This document shows, one piece after another, positions 2,060-3,984 of a stretch of DNA of 64,000 nt. Origin of the DNA: Agarophyton chilense (Eukaryota; Rhodophyta; Florideophyceae; Gracilariales; Gracilariaceae); assembly GCA_030374765.1 (NCBI GenBank), contig JARGXX010000008.1:186001-250000 (forward strand), written 5' to 3'. Made by a program: the position numbers and the translations under genes. The notes beneath the pieces are model-generated. The model was given only the letters and a program-made list of their open reading frames with translations. It made no database searches and had not been told where the DNA came from. Every line of letters begins with the position of its first letter. Position 1 is the first letter of the stretch.

Positions 2060-3916
2060 CTACGGAAAGCCCGAGGAGGGACCCGCCCCACCGTTGGGAT
2101 TCTGACCCTGATGGTACGCCGAGGCGAAAGCCAACATCTGGCTCACATCCGTCATACCCGGGGGAATCGGAATGCCTGCGTTCACGAGGCCTTGTCGCAC
2201 ACTATCCGCTTGCGGAGGGGCAACCGGCGCCTGCGCAAGGGTGTTCACACCCCACCCGGGGGGAGCAGATGGACCGCCACCGGATGCATTCGCCGCCGCA
2301 GCTGAGGTCGTTCCCACTGGTTGGAAGGGTGCAGATGGCTCCACAGGGAGTACTCCACTAGGAGCTGGCATGTCGTTATCCAACGCTGGATCGTCCAGGT
2401 CTACTGGAGGCTCGTACTCGTAATCGCCGGTATAAATGAACCCCGTCGGGTGTCCCACCGGCATCGGTCGAGGCGAGTCAATCAGCGCCCGTGCTTGCGC
2501 CGCGCTGATGCGAACCCCTTCGAAGGGACTGTAATAGACCCGGTTACCGGAGCCCGGATCGTACCGGCCAGGAGACTTGTCTCGCACGGATCCTTCCCCT
2601 GCGGGCTGATTTTCCACTGGAACTCGATCCCATTGGGTGTTGTCGATCACGTCCAAGATTGGATACAGGTCCTGCACGCTGCTGGCCGAACCCAACGCTG
2701 GGACAAGGTCGATCTGACGCATGATGGTCCGTAGCATCGGAGGAATATACCAGATACGGAAATGGTCATGAGCATCCCAGAGGAGATGCGCCGCTACGCG
2801 GGCTGCCCACTCGGCTGCAACGAGGGCCCAGTATCCCGAGTTCGGGTCGTGCATCAAACGAGACCCGATATAGTAGAGGCATAGGGGCAGTTCAGCAAAG
2901 CACCCTCGAGGGACCTCGACCTTACTCCACTAAGCTGGAAGTGGCACGAATCGCCCAACCTTCGCCGTGTTACGGATACGCTCCAGTTCCACGTGAGGAT
3001 ACGGGACAAGGAACCCGAAACGGGAGCGCGAGCGGCGCTCGAAGCGCACGCGTCGATCGAACCCATACTGGGTAAACTGCCGTTGAAGGTACCTGAATTC
3101 AGCCCGAAGGATGGGACAACTCCATTGGAGCATATCTTCTCGGAGAGGAAAACCCGGTCCGCGGAACTCGGCTTCGGGAAAGGCTGCCAGGTTATCCCCG
3201 TAGGAGACCTCACCGAATGTGCGGTAATAGGCGACATCGAACCCGTACTCCGGGGTAACCAGATGGTCAAAGCGTGACCTCTCCAATCGCTGGTAGGCCA
3301 GAGCCGCCATCGCTGCGCGCGCCTTGTCCAGGGACTCCCCGCGACCGCGGTATAGATACTGAGGCTCTATGGCTACCCGCGCCCTCCAATCGGGAGAACG
3401 TACAACCTCGACAGGTAGGCCACCCGGCAATAAGCCGTCCTCCACGTAGGAGTCGATGAGCTCATCGTCGCGAACCGCTGTCGGATGGAACCACGGAGCG
3501 CGGGAATATATCACCGGATCGGTAAGGGGACTCAACCTTCGAAAGGATTCGTTTGAGATCCAACCTCTGGAGTTTGCTACCAAGGGCATCGCATGAGCGG
3601 AGTTCCACGCCACCGCGGTGATGTCCAAATCCTCCTCAGGATGTCGGTTGCCCGCCGAGGCGGAAGGTTCGGTACCTGACGGAGCCGCATCCAAACCGGA
3701 GAAATATCCACCCTGCTGGGGAGCTTCGTTGTCCGCCGGCGCGGAGGCCGATGGCCCCAGCAGTGGGTTGAGGACGTATGGGTTCATTCCCTTGAGAGGG
3801 CTGGTTGAGACTGCTGTTGCGAGAAGTTGCTTATCGCCGAAAGTCGGAGGAGTAGAAGAAAGTTGTACGGATGTGCCGGTTTTGTGGCGATCCTGAGAAG
3901 TGGTGAAGGACCCCAT
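2060..3916 (-). pseudogene. Gypsy-A antisense reading frame, about 619 codons with one internal TAG
   Basis: Read on the minus strand, an open frame runs from ATG at 3916 (the frame is open to 3955) to 2060, broken by a single in-frame TAG at 2930-2932. The protein is not a known family to me. The first 100 residues are Pro/Ser/Gly-rich. The middle is rich in Arg, Tyr and Phe, and the end is Pro/Gly-rich with WGVN and HQGQNPN motifs. The start lies about 80 bases inside the 3' LTR boundary and the gene points back toward pol. A diverged relative sits in the same place in gypsy-B (59025-61418) and shares the motif order. An accessory or gag-like role is inference. The TAG could be a nonsense mutation or a readthrough site. 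Confidence 0.6.
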
Positions 3917-3984
3917 TGGGAGAGAAGAATATATAGTGACCGGAAAGCAAGACACACGCGGCTCGGAATGTTCTTCCTCGTCTT

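Follow-up and report, generated by a model that had tools for sequence, protein, structure and literature searches.

Can a long reading frame that runs against gag and pol inside a retrotransposon be a gene in its own right? The question is raised by a 64,000-nucleotide (nt) stretch of the red alga Agarophyton chilense, here called the window (contig JARGXX010000008.1, positions 186,001 to 250,000; C8:186001-250000 in the 79.8-Mb assembly that we searched). Two gypsy-type long terminal repeat (LTR) retrotransposons in it, gypsy-A and gypsy-B, both carry minus-strand coding sequence between pol and the 3′ LTR, which an initial annotation of the window had proposed to be a conserved antisense gene. 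Comparison of genomic copies indicates that this is almost certainly a real gene under selection, and the gypsy-A and gypsy-B versions are very probably homologous, with gypsy-B a distant member of the family.

The antisense gene of gypsy-A

The gypsy-A frame runs from stop to stop over positions 2060-3982 (−), and the gene counted from its first ATG at 3916 occupies 2060-3916 (618 codons plus stop). The open reading frames (ORFs) at 2060-2857 and 2930-3955 (−) are one frame, split by the only premature stop in the window copy, a TAG at 2930-2932. A second in-frame ATG at 3787 aligns with the start of a related database protein, P0001, and the core conserved across families lies at 2399-3499 (−; about residues 140 to 506 of 618). 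The plus strand holds a gag-like frame, whose 22.1 bits fall just short of the Pfam gag cut-off, and a pol with the domain order reverse transcriptase, RNase H, integrase. The part of pol behind the integrase core (3-869) leaves the window leftward, continuing the frame of locus L009, and a chromodomain-like stretch follows at 1462-1608 (PF00385, 23.4 bits; curated cut-off, 25.1) in a frame that ends at 1659. Pol and the antisense gene converge without overlap, about 400 bp apart. A polypurine tract recognized by eye (3984-3996) adjoins the 3′ LTR (3997-4912, plus strand), which is 96.7% identical to the 5′ LTR at L009 2702-3616. The antisense frame is thus placed between pol and the 3′ LTR and opposed to gag-pol, an arrangement termed aORF-3R.

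Residues 1 to 341 of the window frame, used as the query, matched at least 118 places in the assembly. Among the matches listed, to which the following counts also refer, the window's own was 100% identical and the rest 93 to 96%; the matched part lacked a stop in 81 of the 118, and in 48 it was both stop-free and part of an open frame 640 or more codons long. We paired these with integrase matches, of which there were at least 121, and all 44 pairs within 8 kb were inverted, with the antisense gene 3.66 to 4.06 kb downstream (unpaired matches are uninformative). The listed integrase copies were 96 to 99% identical, compared with the 93 to 96% of the antisense product. Twenty-one copies were aligned, 20 covering the full frame and one (L005) matching over 1286 bases only, and the sole internal gap was one base in L008. 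The frame is open in 13 of the 20 full-length copies, which is not an unbiased rate because the sample was chosen partly for openness (ten of the 13 were selected for a stop-free table entry, the three others likewise).

A purine-rich, GAAGAAGAT-like stretch lies at window positions 1830-2000, between the end of pol and the end of the antisense gene. No target-site duplication of the window copy was seen by eye. Beside gypsy-A copies, the frames at window 4761-7547 (−) and L009:2083-2676 (−) look copia-like by eye, with no Pfam match, and L010:4239-4760 (−) is integrase-like (PF00665; E = 1.2e-5; 25.9 bits, below the cut-off). These adjoining retroelement-like frames suggest nested insertions.

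Selection on the antisense frame

The antisense frame is under purifying selection in both elements, in agreement with the proposal of a selected accessory protein. Across the 20 gypsy-A copies, shared changes comprised 45 nonsynonymous and 33 synonymous substitutions (ratio of nonsynonymous to synonymous polymorphism [pN/pS], 0.56; P = 0.012), and singletons comprised 231 and 120 (pN/pS, 0.79; P = 0.034). Codons 131 to 500, which cover the cross-family core, had a shared pN/pS of 0.37, the lowest among the larger segments. The pairwise ratio of nonsynonymous to synonymous rates (dN/dS) was 0.60 over 190 pairs and rose to 0.88 and 1.21 in the shifted antisense frames (first 12 copies). For gypsy-B, the mean dN/dS was 0.39 over 28 pairs of eight open segments picked by length, and the five other frames gave 1.05 and 1.38 (shifted antisense), 0.93, 0.52, and 1.62. 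The five other frames held 8 to 23 stops in each of the 21 gypsy-A copies; the sense frames among them had at least 8 in every copy, and at least 15 in the two gypsy-B frames that we counted.

Related families in the genome

Two database proteins are related to the gypsy-A product, P0001 at 47% and P0002 at 29% identity; together with the at least 118 genomic copies, they indicate that the antisense frame is more than chance. When A1 was used for a profile search against the protein database, P0001 alone matched and P0002 was not returned. With P0002 as the query, we found at least 68 genomic places, all lying more than 3.7 kb away from the listed gypsy-A copies, and took six of these loci, which form three further families: C (L059, 652 codons; L062, 681), D (L060 and L064, 611 each; L063, 534), and E (L061, 670). 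Intact frames, whose absence the initial annotation would have counted against the gene, exist elsewhere, in these families and in the two database proteins: apart from the shorter L063, those of C, D, and E are open over 611 to 681 codons, with products 35 to 42% identical to that of A. Invariant W, R, D, G, and P residues mark a large conserved core. No relatives were confirmed in viral contigs (queries A1 and P0002) or in contigs of prokaryote genomes (query A5).

In A, C, and D the gene and pol meet tail to tail, and the gene begins beside the 3′ LTR; family E was seen on the gene side alone. At the two loci with enough flank, L059 (C) and L060 (D), the opposite strand carries an integrase frame directly behind the gene. 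In none of A, C, and D does the gene overlap the pol frame. A chromodomain (PF00385) scores above the cut-off in D, and the Pfam scan of the family C pol frame gave no chromodomain match. Identities of the antisense product were 37% (A-C), 35% (A-D), 35% (C-D), and 42% (A-E), and that of A-B was not detected in the same pairwise comparison; identities of pol were 69% (A-C), 55% (A-D), 53% (C-D), and 47% (A-B). By these values the antisense gene diverges faster than pol. The identity orders of the two roughly agree, which fits joint descent, although the families are few.

The gypsy-B gene and its relationship to gypsy-A

The gypsy-B gene occupies the same place as that of gypsy-A. The long minus-strand frames described by the initial annotation are present in both elements, though the gypsy-B copy in the window is broken into five pieces in different frames (all −): an N-terminal piece (60737-61318), a piece carrying RF...VE (60421-60705), two core pieces (60244-60420 and 59782-60210), and a C-terminal piece with PPKKRARL (59025-59807). 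Two other gypsy-B copies have open antisense frames of 698 and 748 codons. On the plus strand of the window copy are a reverse transcriptase piece (55831-56322; PF00078), the integrase core (57503-58090; PF00665), and a chromodomain-like stretch (58616-58759; PF00385, 17.6 bits, below the cut-off). A stretch at 53797-53870, presumed to belong to the 5′ LTR, matches one in the presumed 3′ LTR (61610-61683) at 88%. Each of two pieces of the antisense gene had at least 150 genomic matches, and the seven database relatives of the product are all named Agarophyton chilense. Sets of gypsy-B antisense copies that score the same or almost the same are found on many of contigs C40, C42-C48, C51, C52, C54, C55, C59, C122, and C125 (G000), as if whole blocks had been repeated.

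The likeness that the initial annotation saw between the two products stands at the profile level, where scores of 48 to 58 compare with a best shuffle of 33.5, and fails in pairwise BLASTP. Profile-profile comparison of three A-type sequences with 13 gypsy-B rows scored 48.2 (60 column shuffles, at most 26.2). Eight A-type rows scored 57.9 (E = 2.7e-6; probability, 88.5), against at most 20.9 for 40 shuffles and 17.8 for the reversed profile. With 60 gypsy-B rows the score was 56.8; 60 block shuffles reached at most 33.5, the best of all 160 shuffled controls, and integrase, gag, and reverse transcriptase at most 19.9. Leaving out P0001 and P0002 still gave 48.0, and adding families C to E raised the score from 48 to 58. 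BLASTP of P0001 against one gypsy-B product gave an E value of 8e-5, with a core score of 31.2 bits versus 30.0 for shuffles. The matches of C, E, and D to one gypsy-B product (E = 2.7e-8, 1.6e-5, and 5e-4) were dropped as evidence because core-only scores hardly stand out from those of 400 shuffled and two reversed sequences.

The shared landmarks first noted by eye are mostly coincidental. Of them, only RF...VE lies within the profile-aligned core, with RF replaced by RL in most gypsy-B rows. All six other gypsy-B rows covering the place of WGVN differ from it (three TGGV and one each of WGVD, TGRV, and TRGV), and P0001 has WSV there; RYD and QGQ occur in A and in gypsy-B copies and are absent from P0001, C, D, and E. 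We take these three resemblances to be chance or copy specific.

Proposed role and alternatives

Overall, we lean slightly toward a selected antisense accessory gene that is expressed from the 3′ LTR side and has a nuclear role. Its mRNA would be antisense to the element, with a promoter lying in the 3′ LTR or next to it. Transcription from this side is probable. In A, C, D, and E the first ATG is, by eye, some 10 to 70 nt away from the polypurine tract, which makes a 3′ LTR promoter the simplest guess. We dropped a candidate TATA box immediately before the start of the gypsy-A gene because, by eye, the sequence there is not the same in the window copy as in L010 and is not shared by C, D, and E. 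The predicted product, a mostly helical core flanked by stretches rich in S, P, A, and G, might be a nuclear accessory or regulatory protein serving the element, controlling its expression or chromatin state or helping in nuclear steps of transposition. We propose this nuclear function tentatively, at a little under an even chance, on the model of gene23 in maize Grande, whose product is nuclear. Every gypsy-B row that extends to the C terminus, five in all, has a PKKR-type stretch, and simple nuclear localization signal patterns match both long gypsy-B products.

Several observations weigh against this explanation. The nuclear localization patterns find no match in A, C, D, E, P0001, or P0002, so that the nuclear location draws on gypsy-B and on analogy, and no TATA-like element common to the gene starts was seen by eye. 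The openness of gypsy-A copies is in itself weak evidence, because young copies of an intact source often remain open, and their pN/pS ratios are only modestly below 1. The sense frame sharing its third codon position with the antisense frame also has a low ratio (0.55 for shared changes in A and 0.52 in B), though it is full of stops. Direct BLASTP of the gypsy-A against the gypsy-B product gave no significant alignment; restricted to the core, the best shuffles beat the real score for A, D, and E against gypsy-B and fell just short of it for C and P0002. Two AlphaFold models had a mean predicted local distance difference test (pLDDT) score of 37 and are usable only for their similar order of helices and strands.

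That order nevertheless speaks, in these two low-confidence models, against separate origins of merely similar-looking genes in A and B. The nonsignificant pairwise core comparisons would fit separate origins, as would the short span of the profile alignment (about 150 to 170 columns), but the profile score lies far above every control and climbs once C to E are included, and position and orientation are identical in the two elements; we regard separate origins as quite improbable. It is less likely still that the antisense transcript itself matters, pairing with element RNA to tune expression while the frame is a by-product. Roles of antisense RNA are discussed for other elements in passages of PMC7264820, but such a transcript would explain neither the amino acids conserved across families (29 to 47% identity, with open frames) nor the low dN/dS, and the gene does not overlap pol in A, C, or D.

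The function of the protein could be other than regulatory. Envelope-like genes, too, lie at this place behind pol and before the 3′ LTR, and the most hydrophobic stretch of P0002 is near its N terminus; even so, we give very little credence to a structural or envelope-like protein in reverse orientation, given that all 44 listed pairs are inverted relative to integrase and that, on hydropathy alone, the highest 19-residue value was 0.91 to 1.57 in all but one of eight products, the exception being a gypsy-B copy with 1.82. An enzyme or nucleic acid-binding protein taken from a virus or the host, aiding reverse transcription or integration, would account for the large core with its invariant residues. 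We consider this unlikely, since nothing indicates an active site and, as the initial annotation also reported, the family is not a recognized one: no match above or near the cut-off was found in Pfam or NCBIfam (seven products) or PHROGs (four products), apart from a subthreshold Pfam match of one gypsy-B piece (E = 0.037), and a PDB sequence search gave no convincing match (best E = 0.11). The selected antisense accessory gene remains our preferred explanation.

Other features of the window

Elsewhere, the window contains a DDE_1 transposase fragment at 8744-9055 (−; PF03184; E = 1.9e-10). Direct repeats of 115 nt occur at 29094-29208, 36361-36475, and 36941-37055 (69 to 74% identical to the reference), and others of 136 nt at 36765-36900 and 37165-37300 (77%).

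Comparison with known antisense genes

Antisense accessory genes in plant LTR elements, to which the initial annotation had pointed, are indeed on record: passages of PMC7264820 and PMC11963269 describe antisense ORFs at this place in Grande and RIRE2 (both covered in PMC7264820), Retand, PvRetro13, and Boty, and treat the role of such ORFs in retrotransposons as unsettled. No red algal case was apparent from titles and abstract openings in the open-access literature, which misses most subscription journals. The algal gene is a separate instance of this known arrangement, an antisense accessory gene between pol and the 3′ LTR, with an uncatalogued protein family.

By description, the closest parallels include gene23 of Grande in maize and the antisense ORF of RIRE2 in rice, which have the same place and orientation (per the relevant part of PMC7264820) and differ in host. 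Grande gene23 is described there as having its own upstream promoter and a nuclear product. The Boty antisense ORF of Botrytis, as sketched in the same source, shares place and orientation outside plants, and HBZ of human T-cell leukemia virus (HTLV) combines an antisense promoter in the 3′ LTR with a nuclear product, according to sections of PMC7264820 and PMC11963269. Retand elements are characterized in part of PMC11963269 as nonchromoviruses with long pol-LTR regions, often with tandem repeats. Antisense ORFs of the Retand lineage in flowering plants carry the TRP28 domain (PF04195, Transposase_28), unlike the algal products: eight of them went unmatched by PF04195 in Pfam scans, and the domain appeared nowhere in a genome search in which control genomes were likewise silent.

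A bolder proposal, which we consider possible but somewhat doubtful, is that an ancestor of the red algal chromoviruses gained, on a single occasion and in reverse orientation, an old protein family that has no catalogued relatives, and that this family has since coevolved with pol as an obligatory nuclear regulator, a sequence-unrelated algal counterpart of TRP28/gene23 and of retroviral antisense genes. The cross-family alignment points to residues worth testing. Earlier cases come from flowering plants, one fungus, and some retroviruses, and the algal family adds an independent one; if unrelated elements have repeatedly evolved a gene at this place and in this orientation, the arrangement itself is probably functional. 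Should the single old acquisition prove true, antisense accessory genes would be a recurrent solution in LTR elements.
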